Below, piece by piece: positions 51,366 to 59,922 of a DNA stretch of 64,000 nt. Below the pieces are notes generated by a model. That model was not told where the DNA came from and searched no databases. It worked only from the letters and a program-made list of their open reading frames with translations. The translations under genes and the position numbers were made by a program. Every line of letters starts with the position of its first letter. Position 1 is the first letter of the stretch. This DNA comes from Nitrospirota bacterium (GTDB lineage: Bacteria > Nitrospirota_A > Leptospirillia > Leptospirillales > Leptospirillaceae). The stretch covers positions 1 to 64,000 of the forward strand of contig JAKBPM010000004.1 of assembly GCA_021829515.1 (NCBI GenBank). The letters are read 5' to 3'.

Positions 51366-53417
51366 ATGGAGAAAGTAGCTTCCCCCAATGCAGGGGACCG
51401 GTCCTTATCGGATGACGAGAAACCGTTTCTGGATTCGAAAGGGAGTTCTGGCTCCAGTTTTAGGGAAAGACTGGAAGAAGCCATCGCAAAGGCTGCCAGA
51501 TCTCTTCTGGATCGCCAGCATCCGGAGGGGTATTGGGTCGAACCTCTTGATGCAGATGTAACCATTCCTGCTGAGTATGTCATGTTTCAGTTTATCCTCG
51601 GGAGAAAGGATGAGGTTTTTTTCCGCGATGTAGCGGAGTACATCCTTTCGATTCAGGGTGAGGATGGGGGGTGGCCTTTATTTACAGGAGGGGCAGCTGA
51701 CATCAGTGCCAGCGTCAAGGCTTATTTTGCCTTGAAGCTTTTGGGGTATTCTCCCGATCATCCGGCTCTGGCAAAAGCGCGTGCGCTCATTCTTGAAAGG
51801 GGCGGAGCCACTACTGTCAATGTTTTTACCCGGATCACCCTGGCTCTTTTTGGGCAATACGACTGGAAGGGTATTCCGGCCTTGCCTTGTGAAATGATTC
51901 TGCTGCCAAAATGGTTCCCTCTTTCGATCTATACCGTTTCCTACTGGTCAAGAACGGTCATTGTTCCCTTGCTGATCATCTATCACTATAAGCCGGTTAC
52001 CCCGGTTCCTCCGGGACAGGGAATGGATGAGCTGTTTTTAAAACCGATGGAGGAGGTTCACTTTGGCTATTCCTGGGATAAAAAACTTTTTTCCTGGAAA
52101 AACCTGTTTTTTGTCCTGGATTATTTTATCCAGCACTGGAACCGCCACCCCCCTGGATTTTTAAGGAAAAGAGCTCTTGCAAGAGCTGTCGAATGGCTGA
52201 TTCCCAGAATGAAAGGAGAGGGGGGCCTCGGTGCGATTTATCCGGCAATGGCCAACAGTGTCATTGCAATGAGGCTTTCAGGGTACTCGGATGATCATCC
52301 GCTTGTGAAAAGGGCTATTGCATCGATTGATGACCTTGTCTTTGCCCGGGACAACATGCAGTCCGTTCAGCCTTGCCATTCTCCGATATGGGATACTGCG
52401 CTCAGCCTTGGGGCCCTTTTTGAGGCGGGTGTTTCTGCCGATCATCCGGCAATTACCCGCGCACTTGAATGGTTTCGCAGAAAAGAAGTCAGGACTGTTG
52501 GCGACTGGTCGGTTCATGTCAAGGGTGTCGAGCCTGGTGGTTGGGCCTTTGAATTTGAAAACGATTACTACCCTGACGTTGACGATACTGCTGTTATTCT
52601 GATGGACTTTGCCAAGTGGACCAATGGATTCAAGGGATATGAAGATGTTGTGAGGAGAGCTGCCAGATGGGTTCTGGCAATGCAGTGCACGGATGGGGGC
52701 TGGGCCTCCTTTGACAAGGACAATGATCTCCTGTTTTTAAACAACATACCTTTTGCCGATCACGGGGCGCTGCTCGATCCGTCAACGGCCGATCTGACGG
52801 GGCGTGTCCTGGAGTTTTTGGGGCTGTACGGTTATCGGCCCGATTTTCCACCGGTTGCGCGGGCTCTCGATTACTTGCGTCGTGAGCAGGAAGCTGACGG
52901 TTCATGGTATGGTCGATGGGGAGTCAACTATATTTATGGCACATGGTCTGTGATTTCGGCATTGAAGGCGTTGGGGATCGATATGAAGTCATCGATGGTT
53001 CAGCGTGCAATGGGCTTTTTACTTGATCACCAGAATCCAGATGGGGGATGGGGCGAAAGCTGCCTCTCCTATTACAAAAAAGAGTCTGCAGGTGTGGGGG
53101 ATTCAACTCCATCGCAAACAGCGTGGGCTCTTATTGCGCTGGTTCATGGGGAACATGCGGACAACCCAAAAGTCCGGAAGGGAGTTTCCTGGCTTCTTGA
53201 GAATATGCGACAAGATGGCCGCTGGGATGAATCACTCTATACCGGAACCGGTTTCCCCAGGGTTTTTTATCTTCGCTATAACATGTACAGAGACTATTTC
53301 CCGTTGTGGGCACTAGCCCTTTACCAGAATGTCCATTTCGAGGGGGCTTCCCGTGTTTCCGGGAAAGTAGCCGTATGGAGGAAGCAGCCCTTTGCCCCTC
53401 TCGCCTCATTTTTCTGA
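51366..53417 (+). CDS. shc: squalene-hopene cyclase
   Basis: Cyclises squalene to hopene/hopanol at the inner membrane. The 683-residue protein has the catalytic aspartate motif DVDD (404-407, in YYPDVDDTA), repeated QW-type motifs (EGYWVEPLDAD, EDGGWPLF, DGGWASFDKDND, DGSWYGRWGVNYIYGTW, PDGGWGESC) and the two alpha-barrel layout. GGAGG precedes the ATG. Its end overlaps the start of the HpnG-like gene by 26 bp. Confidence 0.97.
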   Translation: MEKVASPNAGDRSLSDDEKPFLDSKGSSGSSFRERLEEAIAKAARSLLDRQHPEGYWVEPLDADVTIPAEYVMFQFILGRKDEVFFRDVAEYILSIQGEDGGWPLFTGGAADISASVKAYFALKLLGYSPDHPALAKARALILERGGATTVNVFTRITLALFGQYDWKGIPALPCEMILLPKWFPLSIYTVSYWSRTVIVPLLIIYHYKPVTPVPPGQGMDELFLKPMEEVHFGYSWDKKLFSWKNLFFVLDYFIQHWNRHPPGFLRKRALARAVEWLIPRMKGEGGLGAIYPAMANSVIAMRLSGYSDDHPLVKRAIASIDDLVFARDNMQSVQPCHSPIWDTALSLGALFEAGVSADHPAITRALEWFRRKEVRTVGDWSVHVKGVEPGGWAFEFENDYYPDVDDTAVILMDFAKWTNGFKGYEDVVRRAARWVLAMQCTDGGWASFDKDNDLLFLNNIPFADHGALLDPSTADLTGRVLEFLGLYGYRPDFPPVARALDYLRREQEADGSWYGRWGVNYIYGTWSVISALKALGIDMKSSMVQRAMGFLLDHQNPDGGWGESCLSYYKKESAGVGDSTPSQTAWALIALVHGEHADNPKVRKGVSWLLENMRQDGRWDESLYTGTGFPRVFYLRYNMYRDYFPLWALALYQNVHFEGASRVSGKVAVWRKQPFAPLASFF

Positions 53418-55554
53418 TCACGATTCTCGTTTGTCTTCACGGCCCCTTTTGATTCTTACACCACTTGAGGAAGAGGCCCGATGTTTGATGTCAGGGCTTC
53501 TTCCTGTGCTTAAAAGGCATGGTTTATTGATTCAGCGGGAGAGGGTGGGGTCTGTTTTCTCCCCGGGGCTCTTCCGCTTGCAGGTTATCGGGATGGGGCC
53601 TCCCGATGAGGATGATGATGCGTTCTTGTCGCGCCTGAAACCAGATGATGTCGTTTTCCTGGTCGGTTTTGGGGGTGGAATTTCGAGCCGTGCCCAGAGG
53701 GGAGATGTTTTCTTTCTCTCTTCGGTCTCCACTTTTCAGGAAAAGGATGGCGAGGAATCCCGGCGTTTTTCGGAGGCATCACTGCCTGGCTCATCAATAA
53801 TGGGGAGAATCTTGGGATTCCCGCTTGGGACAGGGGTCTCCCTTTTGAAAATTGCAGGAAGTCCCGAAGAAAAAAAAGAGCTTTTCCGGTTGACAGGCTC
53901 TGATGTTTGCGACATGGAAACCGGAGCATGGGAAAGAGTCATTCAGTCGAAGGGGTGCCGGTTTATTGTGGCAAGAGTCATATCTGATTCAGTTGAAGAA
54001 ACATTGCCGGAGTTTTTAGGGGATCTCATCCAGAAAAACGGGAAGCTGTCCCTCAGAAAACTGTTGCTTGCGCTTCTTTCACCTCAAAAGCTTCTGGCAC
54101 TGGTCAAGATCGGTTACTCACAGAGAGTTGCGAGAAAAGGTCTTGCCGAGCTTGGAAGAAAAATTGGCGTCTTGTTGACGGAAGAATCAAAAGATAAAAC
54201 CATGGGGGAAGTTTTTCGGGGCTTTTTTCTTGGAGTCCTGGTGATGCTCTTCCTGGGGAGTTTTTCTGTCAGCGCTTATGCGATTCCTCTCCCGCCACCT
54301 GCATCTTCGTCGGGGCCACCGGGAACCGGGCCTTTTTTGAATCCGGGCAATGGCGAAAGCTTTCCACAGTTGCCGATTGGTGTCCCATCTCCGTTTTCTT
54401 TCAGTACTCCAACTCAGAATACGGTTGTCATTCCACTTCCTGCTATCGGTGTCAGCTACAATACGGGGGTAACGGTCGGGACGATTGTTCCCATCCTTTC
54501 TGCCTTGCCCAGCGGCCGTATTACTTCAATCCTTGCACCATCCATCACCTACAATCCTTACCTGGGTACCCAGGTGGGCGCGCGTTATTACCGTTATTAC
54601 AAAGGTAATCTCAAAAGATGGCATCTTATCGGGCTTCAGTCGAACTCTATCTGGAACTTTTATGAGTTTCATTACAGAGACCTTTCCATGGGAGATGGTC
54701 GATATATTCTTGATATCCGTCTGAAGGATTTCAAGAATCCCGCTGCCCGATTCTATGGCTTGGGGCCGGACTCCGCTTTTGGAAATCAGTCAAATTACAC
54801 ACTGTCTGAAGCCTCGGCCCATGTGACGGTGGGTGCGAATCTTGACCATCAGAAAATCCGGGCCTGGTTTATGGAGCGACTCAGGGAATATGGTGCCTCC
54901 CCCGGAGTGATTCCCGGCCTGCCCTACTCCGGGACGGTTTTCCCTAATGTCAATGGTCTTTCAAACAATCCTGTGATTATCTCCCATCGGGCGAATGTGA
55001 CTTATGATACCAGGGACAACCACCTGATTCCGTCGACAGGGACCTATGCACGGGCTTTTGCAGAACTTGACCAGAACGAAACGGCCGGTGAGGTAAGTGT
55101 ATTCGATCGCTTCAATGCCGAGTATAAAACATGGATACCCCAGGGGGAGAATGATCAGAATGTGCTTGCGATCAGGGGGATGGTGAACCTGATGAATGGT
55201 CCGAATATTCCCTTCTACGCACAAAGCATGCTGGGAGGCGCGTATACCCTTGAAGGGTTTGGTACTGGACGTTTCTATGATCTTGATGCGGCCCTTTTTA
55301 ATGTTGAAGAGCGGATACAGGCTTTTGACATGACACTTCTCGGTGTAACCAGTTCCTGGCAAATCGCTCCGTTTTTGGGGGTAGGAGAGGTTTTTCATGA
55401 TCAGAGGGAGCTTACAAATCCCTCGCTTTATGCAATCAATCCGGGCGTCGGCTTCCGGGCCCTTGTCGAGCCCAATGTGGTTGGGCGTCTTGACATGGGT
55501 TATTCCACCCAGGCGGGGGTCGTGGAGTATGTGGGAATCGGGTTCCCCTTCTGA
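53392..55554 (+). CDS. HpnG-like nucleosidase fused in frame to an outer-membrane barrel protein
   Basis: One uninterrupted frame of 720 codons. Residues about 15-240 resemble hopanoid-associated phosphorylase/nucleosidase HpnG (MTA/SAH nucleosidase fold: LTPLEEEARCL at the start, VGFGGGIS, and CDMETGAWE carrying the active-site Glu pair), which removes adenine from adenosylhopane. About residue 271 a new start-like Met (54202) is followed by a signal peptide (FFLGVLVMLFLGSFSVSAYA) and a BamA/surface-antigen-type beta-barrel with repeated aromatic strands and a C-terminal Phe (GIGFPF). A cytoplasmic enzyme joined to an exported barrel is unlikely to work as one chain, so two products, by internal start or processing, seem plausible. 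GGAGGAAG precedes the TTG start. Confidence 0.75.
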   Translation: MPLSPHFSDHDSRLSSRPLLILTPLEEEARCLMSGLLPVLKRHGLLIQRERVGSVFSPGLFRLQVIGMGPPDEDDDAFLSRLKPDDVVFLVGFGGGISSRAQRGDVFFLSSVSTFQEKDGEESRRFSEASLPGSSIMGRILGFPLGTGVSLLKIAGSPEEKKELFRLTGSDVCDMETGAWERVIQSKGCRFIVARVISDSVEETLPEFLGDLIQKNGKLSLRKLLLALLSPQKLLALVKIGYSQRVARKGLAELGRKIGVLLTEESKDKTMGEVFRGFFLGVLVMLFLGSFSVSAYAIPLPPPASSSGPPGTGPFLNPGNGESFPQLPIGVPSPFSFSTPTQNTVVIPLPAIGVSYNTGVTVGTIVPILSALPSGRITSILAPSITYNPYLGTQVGARYYRYYKGNLKRWHLIGLQSNSIWNFYEFHYRDLSMGDGRYILDIRLKDFKNPAARFYGLGPDSAFGNQSNYTLSEASAHVTVGANLDHQKIRAWFMERLREYGASPGVIPGLPYSGTVFPNVNGLSNNPVIISHRANVTYDTRDNHLIPSTGTYARAFAELDQNETAGEVSVFDRFNAEYKTWIPQGENDQNVLAIRGMVNLMNGPNIPFYAQSMLGGAYTLEGFGTGRFYDLDAALFNVEERIQAFDMTLLGVTSSWQIAPFLGVGEVFHDQRELTNPSLYAINPGVGFRALVEPNVVGRLDMGYSTQAGVVEYVGIGFPF

Positions 55555-56174
55555 ATTTCCCTTCTCAGACGGTCTTCGGCTGCCCGGTCATTTTTTTTGA
55601 TAACCTTTTGGACAGATCTTTTATTGCTGTCCAGAAGGCTGCAGGAGAGATAGGAGACGGGCGACAGAAACAGGTCAACTGTCCCCATCAGAAGTCCATC
55701 TGCGAGGAATGTTGGAAAAGAAACATCACCATAGTGCCTGAAGGTGAAAGCAGGCCGGGCAAAGATACATGTCGCGAGAGATGTTGTTGTTGTTCTCCCC
55801 AGCTTGTGCACGTCCCGTGCTGAGTTGACCATATAACGGTTAATGGAATATTTATTTGGCCGCAGCAGGGCAGAGTAACGGGTGATATGCCAGTTCTGGT
55901 TCTGGTCAAACCAGAAGAGCTCATTCCCTTTGACAAGGTGCTTTCCAAGAGAGTATCTGGGGTCTGTCCATGAAAATCCGTCTTTTTTGAGAATCGGCTC
56001 TATCTGGGCCTCTGCCTTTCGGGACGGGAAAACGGTATCGGGAAGATCAATTTGAGCTGTATCGAGGGCATTCTGTTTTTCCAGTGGAACCGGCGCCGTG
56101 TTGCATGAAGCAATAGACAGCAGAAGGGCGGAGAGGGCGAGGAACTTTTTTATGACTTTTATTGGGCCGATCAA
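55500..56174 (-). CDS. lipoprotein of unknown function
   Basis: A 224-residue predicted lipoprotein with signal peptide and lipobox LLSIASC ending at about residue 24. The mature part includes a segment with several aromatic residues (ELFWFDQNQNWHITRYSALLRPNKY) and a short hydrophobic helix around residue 165. No family recognised. TTG start with AGAGG just upstream. It runs against the hopanoid genes and its 3' end overlaps the end of the outer-membrane barrel by 55 bp on the opposite strand. Confidence 0.7.
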   Translation of the reverse strand: MIGPIKVIKKFLALSALLLSIASCNTAPVPLEKQNALDTAQIDLPDTVFPSRKAEAQIEPILKKDGFSWTDPRYSLGKHLVKGNELFWFDQNQNWHITRYSALLRPNKYSINRYMVNSARDVHKLGRTTTTSLATCIFARPAFTFRHYGDVSFPTFLADGLLMGTVDLFLSPVSYLSCSLLDSNKRSVQKVIKKNDRAAEDRLRREIQKGNPIPTYSTTPAWVE

Positions 56175-56300: not shown

Positions 56301-57341
56301 ATGGGAACAGGAAAGCGAACAGCTCTGGTGACCGGGGCGACTGGGTTTGTCGGCTCACATGTGGCGCAACTTCTGCTCGAAGAAGGATATTCGATCCGCT
56401 GTCTGGCAAGGGAAGGCAGCGATAAAAGAAATCTTCCCGGAGAGAGTGAGCATGTTTCCTGGGTTACAGGAGATCTCCTTGACCCATTGTCCCTTGTGCG
56501 GGCGCTCGACGGGATGCAGGAGCTGTACCATGTCGCGGCGGACTATAGGCTCTGGACCCCCCGCAAAGGTGAGATCATCCAAACCAATGTCGAGGGAACC
56601 AGAAATATCCTGGAAGCTTGCAGAATTTGCCGTCCGGAGAAGATTGTCTACTGTTCGAGCGTTGCGGCATTGGGGACTCGTTCAGATGGAATTCCCATTG
56701 ATGAGACGATGGAAGTTGACACAAAAACGCTGATCGGGGAATATAAGCTGTCAAAGTATCTTTCCGAGCAGTTGGTGTTGTCCTACGCCGGGGGATGCGA
56801 TGGGGGAGAGCCTCTTCCCGTCGTCATCGTTAACCCCAGTGCTCCAATCGGGGCCGGAGATATCAAGCCAACTCCCACTGGGCGGATTGTTCGTGACTAT
56901 ATGCGGAAAATGATGAAGGCGTACGTCAGGACAGGGCTGAATGTCATCCATGTCCGGGATGTGGCCAGGGGACATCTTCTTGCAGCGCAAAAAGGCGTTC
57001 CCGGGCAGAAGTACATTTTGGCGAATCAAAATATGCAACTGGTCGAGATATTCCGTCTTCTGGCAGGAATAACGGGGGTTCCGGCTCCAAAGGCCGAGAT
57101 GCCAAGATCTCTCCTTTACCCCGTTGCCATCGTTTCTGAGGGAATCTCCCTCTTGACAGGCCGTGAGCCGCTTGTTCCTTTCGATGCGGCGCGTATGGCC
57201 CATAAAATGATGTTTTTCTCAGGAAACAGGGCTGTAAGGGAATTGGGCCTTGTTTTGACGCCGGTGGAGAAAGCTTTTGATGATGCTGTCCGGTGGTTTT
57301 CAAAAGAGGAGTATATGGGGGCCGGGACCTTCCCCGGATAA
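56301..57341 (+). CDS. hpnA: hopanoid-associated NAD-dependent sugar epimerase HpnA
   Basis: Extended short-chain dehydrogenase of 346 residues, matching HpnA-type dihydroflavonol-reductase-like proteins. The NAD motif VTGATGFVGSHVAQLL (about residues 10-25), YHVAADYRLW (a HpnA-typical block), SSVAALG and the YKLSK catalytic Tyr-Lys segment are visible. Presumed to act on the hopanoid side chain or its sugar. GGGAGGA precedes the ATG. It follows the reverse-strand lipoprotein after about 125 bp. Confidence 0.87.
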   Translation: MGTGKRTALVTGATGFVGSHVAQLLLEEGYSIRCLAREGSDKRNLPGESEHVSWVTGDLLDPLSLVRALDGMQELYHVAADYRLWTPRKGEIIQTNVEGTRNILEACRICRPEKIVYCSSVAALGTRSDGIPIDETMEVDTKTLIGEYKLSKYLSEQLVLSYAGGCDGGEPLPVVIVNPSAPIGAGDIKPTPTGRIVRDYMRKMMKAYVRTGLNVIHVRDVARGHLLAAQKGVPGQKYILANQNMQLVEIFRLLAGITGVPAPKAEMPRSLLYPVAIVSEGISLLTGREPLVPFDAARMAHKMMFFSGNRAVRELGLVLTPVEKAFDDAVRWFSKEEYMGAGTFPG

Positions 57342-57437: not shown

Positions 57438-58346
57438 ATGGATATATTTTTACCGGAATATGCGGGTGTCTGTGTCGGCGTGAAACTAGCAATCAAGCTT
57501 GCGAACAAGTCTGCGGAAGAGTCGGTCGGGCCTGTTTTCATTCTCCATGAAATTGTCCATAACACACATGTCGTGAAAGATTTGGCCAACCGTGGAGTGA
57601 AGTCGGTTGATGCCGTCTCGGAAGTTGATCGTGGTACCTTGATCATTAGTGCACACGGCGTTGCTCCGGATGTGATCAAGGAAGCCCGGGACAAGAATCT
57701 TGAAGTGGTTGATACAACATGTCCACTGGTTTCAAAGATCCATCGCATCGTTCGGAACCTCGCGGACAAAAATTATACGATCCTTCTTTTGGGCGAGGAG
57801 AGCCATGATGAGGTCATGGGTGTTCAGGGCTGGGCAAAGGAACATATCCACATCTTTCACAAGCCTGAGGAAATCGATCGCCTTCCTGTTGTCGACGGAC
57901 CTGTGGCACTTGTTTCGCAGACGACACAGAGCATCAAGTACTTTGACGAGATTCTGGCCCTGCTGACGGTCAAATATCCTCAGCTTGAGGTCCACAACAC
58001 CATCTGTGATGCTACCGAGAAGCGTCAGACATCGGCCCTCGAAATTGCGGGAGACATGGATGTGATGATTACCGTCGGCTCCATGACGAGTGCCAACTCG
58101 CGCCGGCTTCAGGAGGTTTCTGCCGGGCTTTGTCCAAAGTCCTATCTGGTTGATAGCGCGAAGGATATCAACCCAGACTGGTTTAACGGAAGCGAAAGAG
58201 TCGGCGTTACCGCAGGGGCTTCAACCCCGGACTGGCTGATTGAGGGTGTGATCGAGCGGTTGGGAGAAATATCAGCCCAGCGAGGATATGCTGTTACGGT
58301 CAACCGTAGCGAGTCCGCAGAAGAGGAGTTCATCTCCACCCACTAG
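57438..58346 (+). CDS. ispH: 4-hydroxy-3-methylbut-2-enyl diphosphate reductase
   Basis: Last step of the non-mevalonate isoprenoid pathway, giving IPP and DMAPP; a [4Fe-4S] enzyme. The three cluster cysteines are Cys12 (GVCVGV), Cys95 (DTTCPLV) and Cys190 (NTICDAT). Other motifs: HEIVHNTHVV, ISAHGVAP and SQTTQS, and the C-terminal TAGASTP. Length 302. AGGAG precedes the ATG. Placed among hopanoid genes, it supplies the precursor for squalene. Confidence 0.95.
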   Translation: MDIFLPEYAGVCVGVKLAIKLANKSAEESVGPVFILHEIVHNTHVVKDLANRGVKSVDAVSEVDRGTLIISAHGVAPDVIKEARDKNLEVVDTTCPLVSKIHRIVRNLADKNYTILLLGEESHDEVMGVQGWAKEHIHIFHKPEEIDRLPVVDGPVALVSQTTQSIKYFDEILALLTVKYPQLEVHNTICDATEKRQTSALEIAGDMDVMITVGSMTSANSRRLQEVSAGLCPKSYLVDSAKDINPDWFNGSERVGVTAGASTPDWLIEGVIERLGEISAQRGYAVTVNRSESAEEEFISTH

Positions 58347-58479: not shown

Positions 58480-59922
58480 ATGCTTAGAACATTATTTTTA
58501 AACCCACCTTCCTTCTCGGACTTTGACGGGGGAGCCGGGGCCCGTTACCAGGCCACGCGAGAGGTTCGCTCATTCTGGTATCCTACATGGCTGACCTATC
58601 CGGCTGGAATGATGCCCAATTCTCTTGTGCTTGATGCTCCGCCAATGGGCTGGGGCGTCAAGGAAACGCTTCGCCTGGCCAAAGATTTTGATATGGTTAT
58701 CCTGTATACGAGCACTCCCTCCCTGAATAATGATATTGCGACCGCCAAGGGCTTCAAGGCGATCAACCCCTCCATGGTTGTCGGTTTTGTCGGCCCGCAT
58801 CCGAGCGTTTTGCCGGAAATTACGCTCAGGGCTGATGATGTCATTGATTTCGTTGTTCGGGAAGAGTTTGATTATGCGATTCCGGAGATTGCATCAGGGA
58901 AGCCCTGGGATGAGGTTCTTGGAATCAATTTCCGCAAAGAGGGCAAGATCTACGCGACTCCTGATCGTGCAGTACTGGAAAACCTCGATGTTCTGCCTTT
59001 TGCTTCCGAGGTTTACAAGCGGGATCTGGATATTTCCCTGTACGAAATACCCTGGATGAAGCACCCGTATGTTTCTATCTATACAGGCAGGGGTTGTGGC
59101 AGCAAGTGTACTTTCTGCCTGTGGCCCCAGACTTTTTCCGGAAATGTCTACCGGACACGTTCTGTGGAGAACGTCATCTCGGAAGTTGAGTATATCGTCA
59201 AGAATTTCCCCGGGATCCAGGAGCTTTTTTTTGATGACGATACACTCACCGAGTATCGCGACCGGACAAGGGAGCTCTCCCATGCGCTGAAGAGATTCAA
59301 CCTTTCCTGGGGATGCAACTCCAAGGCAAATGTTGATTTCGAGACACTTCGCATCATGAAGGACTCCGGATGCCGTGTAATGGTTGTCGGCTATGAATCG
59401 GGAGATCAGCAAATCCTCAATAACGTCAAAAAAGGAATTCGTGTTGAACAGGCGAGGGAGTTCACCAAAAATGCCCATCAGCTTGGAATGACGATTCACG
59501 GGACTTTTATTGTCGGGCTTCCCGGCGAAACACCTGAGACAATTGAGAAAACGATCGACTTTGCTTGTGAAATGGATATTGAGACACTTCAGGTTTCTCT
59601 TGCCTCTCCTTATCCCGGAACTCATTTTTTTGAGCTGGCCCGGGAAAAAGGTTACATGAGCGAGGTCGATATGGTTAATGGTGACGGCATTCAGAACTGC
59701 AATATCAGTTATCCGGAAATCAGTGCCAGAGAGATTTTCATGGCCGTTCCAAAATTTTACCAGCGATTTTACTATCGCCCAAGCTATATTTTTAAGGTCT
59801 TAAAAAGGGCAATGAGCAATGGGAAGGAAGCCCGGAAAATTTTCCGGGAAGCGGTGGCCTATTTTCGCTTTCTTTCGAAGAGAAAAGCGGCTCTCAAGAC
59901 TCCTCCTGCTTCGGTTGCCTGA
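58480..59922 (+). CDS. hpnJ: hopanoid radical SAM protein HpnJ
   Basis: B12-binding-domain radical SAM enzyme of 480 residues. The N-terminal cobalamin-like domain begins LRTLFLNPPSFSDFDGGAG; the radical SAM cluster is Cys206, Cys210 and Cys213 (CGSKCTFC). In characterised bacteria HpnJ forms the cyclitol ring of bacteriohopanetetrol cyclitol ether. The segment FWYPTWLTYPAGM is typical of this subfamily. GGGAGGAG lies about 30 bp upstream; the nearer AAAGAAAGG precedes the ATG. It is followed 42 bp later by hpnI. Confidence 0.9.
   Translation: MLRTLFLNPPSFSDFDGGAGARYQATREVRSFWYPTWLTYPAGMMPNSLVLDAPPMGWGVKETLRLAKDFDMVILYTSTPSLNNDIATAKGFKAINPSMVVGFVGPHPSVLPEITLRADDVIDFVVREEFDYAIPEIASGKPWDEVLGINFRKEGKIYATPDRAVLENLDVLPFASEVYKRDLDISLYEIPWMKHPYVSIYTGRGCGSKCTFCLWPQTFSGNVYRTRSVENVISEVEYIVKNFPGIQELFFDDDTLTEYRDRTRELSHALKRFNLSWGCNSKANVDFETLRIMKDSGCRVMVVGYESGDQQILNNVKKGIRVEQAREFTKNAHQLGMTIHGTFIVGLPGETPETIEKTIDFACEMDIETLQVSLASPYPGTHFFELAREKGYMSEVDMVNGDGIQNCNISYPEISAREIFMAVPKFYQRFYYRPSYIFKVLKRAMSNGKEARKIFREAVAYFRFLSKRKAALKTPPASVA

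Follow-up and report, generated by a model that had tools for sequence, protein, structure and literature searches.

Introduction

FbcH, the cytochrome b/c1 precursor of Bradyrhizobium, is synthesized as one chain and cut at an internal signal peptide into two products: the first part is itself a membrane protein, and the second remains at the inner membrane. A gene with a comparable layout (one chain, an internal signal peptide and, as proposed below, two products), which differs in joining a soluble-type enzyme to an outer-membrane barrel, lies in a stretch of 64,000 nucleotides of a Nitrospirota genome from the family Leptospirillaceae (contig JAKBPM010000004.1, positions 1 to 64,000). We refer to this whole stretch as the window. 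The gene, at 53392-55554, carries an HpnG-like nucleosidase and an Omp85-type barrel in a single reading frame. HpnG has adenosylhopane as its substrate, and in Omp85 proteins the Arg of the L6 motif and a strand Asp form the inner lock of the barrel. The gene is a genus-wide fusion of a hopanoid enzyme and an outer-membrane barrel, which are encoded by neighbouring separate genes in the closest relatives.

Omp85 proteins without an N-terminal extension have been described under the name 'noNterm' (PMC4104836). The barrel discussed here is unlike them in two respects, since a cytoplasmic-type enzyme precedes it and its L6 Arg is replaced by Glu. An hpn cluster with the genes hpnFGAHROP has been reported for Leptospirillum, together with a 'BamA hopanoid system' (PMC7231039). 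In the accessible part of that text, the word 'fused' is absent and the word 'fusion' occurs once, in the legend to Figure 9. That figure reconstructs the history of acid-related genes (gain, loss, fusion and duplication) and may or may not record the fusion described here. Among the search matches from the open-licence literature, no report of this fusion was found in titles and abstract beginnings.

Conservation of the fused frame in the genus

The initial annotation of the window had described an HpnG-like nucleosidase, a signal peptide and a barrel in one frame, and had offered three explanations for this arrangement: a real fusion, a stop codon lost in this strain, or internal initiation at the ATG at 54202. 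It had also proposed an alignment with other genomes of the genus in search of a stop near the junction. The arrangement itself is confirmed by Pfam and NCBIfam matches and by the frame, which is single and open on the forward strand from a TTG start to a TGA stop and encodes 720 amino acids. The alignment was run, and no stop was found in any of the three genus genomes examined (G000, G001 and G002). In the first of these, a second assembly of the window's species, this frame is open too, and a comparison of 4910 bases gave 6 differences from the window; in G002, a single contig of 2,559,538 bases, the frame is open as well. Additionally, four fused protein clusters of 13, 22, 7 and 2 members (44 in total), all without a stop, were recovered among the 7996 candidates sharing most words. 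P0001, P0003 and P0002 match the three species of the genus, and P0004 represents a fourth lineage. It is on these genomes and clusters that the option of a real fusion stands. The same candidates include 89 barrel relatives, of which only the four fused clusters reach at least 90% identity, the next one standing at 72%.

Synonymous divergence (dS) between the species is near or at saturation, with values of 0.98-1.77 for the HpnG part and 1.24-2.24 for the barrel, and no insertion or deletion occurs after alignment column 52. According to composition shuffles, the 20-codon junction would stay open with a probability of 0.14, 0.26 and 0.24 in the three species, which gives a product of about 0.009 if the three are independent. 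The ratio of nonsynonymous to synonymous divergence (dN/dS) lies at 0.15-0.23 for HpnG and at 0.014-0.02 for the barrel, and both domains look functional and subject to purifying selection. At the protein level, the HpnG part (53431-54156) changes about nine times faster than the barrel (54283-55551), with dN of 0.22-0.27 versus 0.025-0.031. A frameshift that would end HpnG in another frame was considered and rejected: in each of the other two forward frames, the junction holds one stop in the window, one in L003 and none in L002 (the latter two being the loci of the other two species), so that such an end is unconserved.

Separate genes in the sister genera

The family is represented here by 21 genomes, 18 of which lie outside the genus. 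Both hpnG and the barrel were found in 17 of these 18 (G003-G010 and G012-G020), while G011 gave no match. In all 17, the two are adjacent separate genes, hpnG ends in TGA, and its stop overlaps the start of the barrel gene in a 4-base NTGA (ATGA in 3 genomes, GTGA in 9, TTGA in 5). The Shine-Dalgarno energy of the sister barrel gene is -7.4 to -12.7 kcal/mol in 16 loci and -8.0 in G003. Because of this overlap and the strong Shine-Dalgarno sequence, the ancestral pair was probably translationally coupled, and separate coupled genes are likely to be the ancestral state. Separate genes in orthologues, which had been named in the initial annotation as a finding that would speak against the fusion, are thus present outside the genus but not within it.

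The sister pairs resemble the fused locus in the adjacency of the two parts, in the HpnG motifs (13 of the 17 aligned domains come from such pairs) and in the barrel family; in L034 and L040, a cyclase gene stands just before hpnG, as judged by eye. They are unlike it in being two genes joined by the NTGA overlap, with a Shine-Dalgarno sequence and a start of its own for the barrel. Counting by eye as far as the former overlap, we find the HpnG tail of the fused genus to be shorter by about 6 to 12 residues. The position aligned with the ancestral start reads TTGA in the window and in L003 and CTGC in L002, which thus has CTG there and no ATG, GTG or TTG. The fused rows group together in a tree of the barrels, where support is weak (66/87), the root is a midpoint root and long branches meet. 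For these reasons, we did not rely on the tree to show that the fusion is the derived state, and took this instead from the sister genomes, of which 17 of 17 with both genes have them separate.

Outside the family, 10 genomes contain a barrel match and 7 of them an hpnG match as well. The two matches share a contig in 2 of the 7 (G037 and G053) and lie on separate contigs in 5, including G032 with its large contigs; linkage of the barrel and hpnG therefore holds only partly across the phylum. At L036 (G037:C196) and L037 (G053:C8), in another Nitrospirota family, such a barrel lies near hpnG, with a dxs-like gene (identified by eye) beyond.

The HpnG-like part

Residues 67-216 match Pfam PNP_UDP_1 with 28.0 bits, above the gathering cut-off of 25.1. 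The best NCBIfam match of the N-terminal part is HpnG TIGR03468, with 74.6 bits and thus below the curated cut-off of 187.1, which is why the domain is called HpnG-like here. It resembles the HpnG family in this best match, in the invariant DME and SD motifs, in its position after squalene-hopene cyclase and in the presence of HpnH; it is unlike the family in its score and in being joined to an exported barrel.

The residues listed in Table 1 are invariant in an alignment of 17 HpnG domains, 4 of them fused and 13 separate. We take E28 to be a candidate equivalent of a catalytic Glu of MTA/SAH nucleosidase, and the roles of D174-M175-E176 and S198-D199 are likewise presumed from their likeness to this enzyme. 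The DME and ISD segments align with the MTA/SAH nucleosidase 4pr3 in a weak match (E 0.055). We infer that the fused HpnG is active as an enzyme.

Exactly one HpnG-like match per genome was obtained in 12 of 12 genomes. HpnH, encoded at another genomic place, scores above its cut-off in the same number of genomes (12 of 12) and in 0 of 14 controls. With a single HpnG-like match in each genome, together with HpnH, no candidate for the HpnG step other than the fused HpnG was found. A second, unfused HpnG was not found in the 12 genomes, those of the genus being 80.5% (G000), 72% (G001) and 99% (G002) complete. A query with the HpnG part against proteins of unfused length returned 0 of 3382 candidates at E<=0.001, in a search that does not reach the sister HpnGs (about 30% identity). 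HpnN (TIGR03480), a known hopanoid transporter, exceeds its cut-off in 0 of 20 genomes; weak matches to it occur in 20 of 20 genomes and in 10 of 14 controls.

The internal signal peptide and the barrel

The signal-peptide core has a hydrophobicity of 2.41-2.87 (Kyte-Doolittle, 14 residues), as compared with at most 2.08 elsewhere in the chain and 1.80-2.95 in 16 sister barrels. Its sequence diverges fast, with 21-38% identity between species. In 4 of 4 fused clusters, the one open frame holds both the internal signal peptide and a conserved cleavage site, with Ala or Ser at -3 and Ala at -1, and no Lys or Arg occurs within the first 78 mature residues. The earlier statement that a signal peptide in mid-chain cannot act normally was too strong, as the kept cleavage site suggests that this one still works.

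The predicted mature part consists of a low-confidence Pro-rich leader followed by an Omp85-type barrel of about 16 long strands (counted by eye, residues ~377-717). The stretch between the cleavage site and the barrel is about 45 residues long and rich in Pro and Gly; the separate sister barrels also begin Pro-rich after their signal peptides. Residues 474-630 match Pfam Omp85 (PF01103) with 40.5 bits, above the gathering cut-off of 24, and the best NCBIfam match of the C-terminal part is Omp85_fam NF047779, with 107.8 bits, below the cut-off of 200. The barrel fold is of the BamA/TamA type. The structure model was built from an alignment of the window protein and 33 of the 89 database proteins; its HpnG part is poor, owing to a shallow alignment. 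POTRA domains gave no Pfam match at E<=1 in the fused protein, where residues 285-341 have a predicted local distance difference test score (pLDDT) below 50 and no predicted fold.

The Arg of the Omp85 L6 motif (LRG[FY]) and the strand Asp are replaced by Glu621 (55252-55254) and Gly663 (55378-55380), respectively. In a 34-row alignment, the E/G pair is present in 14 of 14 rows from the family, fused and separate alike, and the R/D pair in 20 of 20 rows outside it. A count over the 89 proteins gave 65 with R/D, 15 with E/G and one with R/G, eight being not fully readable. The inner lock of Omp85 seems to have been rewired in the Leptospirillaceae barrels.

A proposed polyprotein and its alternatives

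In our opinion, the fusion probably functions as a bacterial polyprotein: signal peptidase would release the barrel, and the signal peptide would remain on HpnG, anchoring its C-terminus in the membrane. We hold this with moderate confidence. The ancestor of the genus may have undergone a small frame-changing deletion close to the 3' end of hpnG, which removed the hpnG tail and the Shine-Dalgarno sequence of the barrel, left the stop out of frame and put the two genes in one frame. Translation would begin at the TTG at 53392 and yield HpnG and the barrel as one chain; because HpnG is not followed by a stop, a ribosome that produces HpnG always goes on to produce the barrel. HpnG would then fold in the cytoplasm, while the internal signal peptide would enter the Sec channel with its N side cytoplasmic. 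With the hydrophobic core and the cleavage site retained, signal peptidase I would probably cut after A297, and the barrel (residues 298-720) would continue to the outer membrane. HpnG would stay anchored in the inner membrane through the spent signal peptide, near adenosylhopane, its presumed lipid substrate, and in a 1:1 ratio with the barrel.

Several points weigh against this proposal. The cleavage into two products is what we infer from sequence, and the net charge of the 12 residues before the signal-peptide core is only 0 to +2. The genus sample consists of three genomes, two of them incomplete, and three of the four fused clusters belong to the same species as these genomes. The TIGR03468 score is below the cut-off in 12 of 12 family genomes tested as well, and matches below the cut-off also occur in 12 of 14 control genomes, so that such a match alone is no proof of HpnG. 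Furthermore, two internal codons of the other species have appreciable Shine-Dalgarno sequences: the TTG of L003 at the ancestral start has a fair one (-6.4 kcal/mol, spacing 12), and TTG278 of L002 has one of -8.3, leaving a 19-residue signal peptide without basic residues. These candidates indicate that internal starts may add barrel.

The last point leads to an alternative in which HpnG is made as the fusion and most of the exported barrel comes from species-specific TTG, GTG or ATG starts, with an ordinary N-terminal signal peptide. We consider it possible, though doubtful. Apart from the two codons just named, it is favoured by the TTGA that the window and L003 retain where the ancestral start lay, and the maintenance of signal-peptide properties under fast sequence change would also fit it. 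However, none of the candidate start codons keeps its position in all three species, the window and L002 show no strong Shine-Dalgarno sequence at the place where 17 of 17 sister loci have one, and in clusters P0002-P0004 Met is absent from the segment that links the HpnG tail to the cleavage site.

The energies of the internal candidates can be set beside that of the fused gene's own start, which is -9.3 kcal/mol in all three species of the genus. In the window, candidates that leave the whole signal peptide reach -1.0 and -3.3; the corresponding values are -4.2 for L002 and -6.4 for L003. At -5.9 in the window, a shortened signal peptide of 13 or 14 residues would be left. As a background, we evaluated 711 codons of the window that resemble starts and lie within long frames: 559 reach -1.0, 338 reach -3.3, 237 reach -4.2, 128 reach -5.9, 94 reach -6.4, 43 reach -8.3 and 27 reach -9.3. 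The ATG at 54202, pointed out in the initial annotation, is indeed present in the window but not conserved, its Met being absent from L002, L003 and clusters P0002-P0004, and its Shine-Dalgarno energy of -1.0 is to be compared with the -7.4 to -12.7 of 16 sister barrel genes. A conserved internal start at 54202 is thereby ruled out and initiation at this codon is disfavoured; across the three species of the genus, no conserved internal start was found.

Another possibility is that the fusion is used as such, remaining uncleaved or being cleaved late. The nucleosidase at the inner membrane would then stand in register with the barrel, and hopanoid side-chain processing would be joined, physically or stoichiometrically, to a step of outer-membrane delivery. 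This use of the fusion appears improbable to us. We find it very improbable that the chain is an uncleaved tether, with the hydrophobic segment serving as a membrane anchor and cytoplasmic HpnG linked covalently to the outer-membrane barrel through the Pro-rich leader. The single chain in 4 of 4 fused clusters and the low-confidence stretch before the barrel would suit such a tether, but all four clusters retain the (-3,-1) cleavage motif, and about 45 residues would barely span a periplasm. The Pro-rich stretch is no adaptation to tethering, because it is also found in the separate sister barrels. Finally, a stop between two ordinary genes that was lost by sequencing error or by mutation in one strain, for which the two genes of the sister genera might speak, is already refuted by the same open frame in the second assembly, in two further species (one of them in the 2.56 Mb contig) at dS of at least 0.98, and in the four clusters.

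The hopanoid gene neighbourhood

The fused gene is surrounded by a hopanoid cluster, with the cyclase upstream and HpnA, IspH and HpnJ downstream (Table 1). The GGAGG of the fused gene also lies inside the 3' end of the cyclase gene. A convergent lipoprotein-like gene without a Pfam match (55500-56174, reverse strand) overlaps the 3' end of the fused gene by 55 nucleotides (nt). L032 and L035 likewise have an open frame that overlaps by 55 nt and is similar in its last few residues, and in L034 a frame of that orientation, possibly a relative, lies 28 nt past the barrel.

Table 1. Coordinates of the fused gene, its elements and the neighbouring hopanoid genes in the window.
Feature	Position	Strand	Evidence
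Squalene-hopene cyclase gene hpnF, overlapping the start of the fused gene by 26 nt	51366..53417	+	above cut-off
Shine-Dalgarno GGAGG of the fused gene, 10 nt 5' of the TTG	53377..53381	+	all three genus species
Fused gene: HpnG-like nucleosidase, internal signal peptide and Omp85-type barrel	53392..55554	+	open in 3 of 3 genus genomes
HpnG-like PNP/UDP-type nucleosidase domain, residues ~14-255	53431..54156	+	profile matches, alignment
E28, invariant in all 17 HpnG domains of the alignment	53473..53475	+	alignment
D174-M175-E176 motif, invariant in 17 of 17	53911..53919	+	alignment
S198-D199, invariant in 17 of 17	53983..53988	+	alignment
TTGA at codon 262, perhaps left over from the ancestral NTGA overlap of stop and start	54175..54178	+	aligned loci
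Internal signal peptide region, residues ~263-297; predicted cleavage (AYA before, IP after) following 54282	54178..54282	+	
Internal ATG, residue 271; non-conserved, without Shine-Dalgarno sequence	54202..54204	+	aligned loci, Shine-Dalgarno energy
Signal-peptide h-region, residues 278-291, core FFLGVLVMLFLGSF	54223-54264	+	
Predicted mature outer-membrane barrel protein, residues 298-720	54283..55551	+	Pfam, structure model
HpnA, hopanoid-associated sugar epimerase	56301..57341	+	above cut-off
IspH	57438..58346	+	above cut-off
HpnJ, radical SAM protein	58480..59922	+	above cut-off

Significance

If the chain is processed as proposed, a cytoplasmic-type enzyme would stand ahead of a cleavable export signal, against the usual rule that such signals are N-terminal. 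The evolutionary route to this arrangement would lead from a translationally coupled NTGA pair through the loss of the stop and of the second start, and a hopanoid enzyme would be placed at the inner membrane by the reuse of a spent signal peptide as an anchor. For the barrel, its fusion to hpnG inside a hopanoid cluster makes it a testable candidate for outer-membrane hopanoid work.

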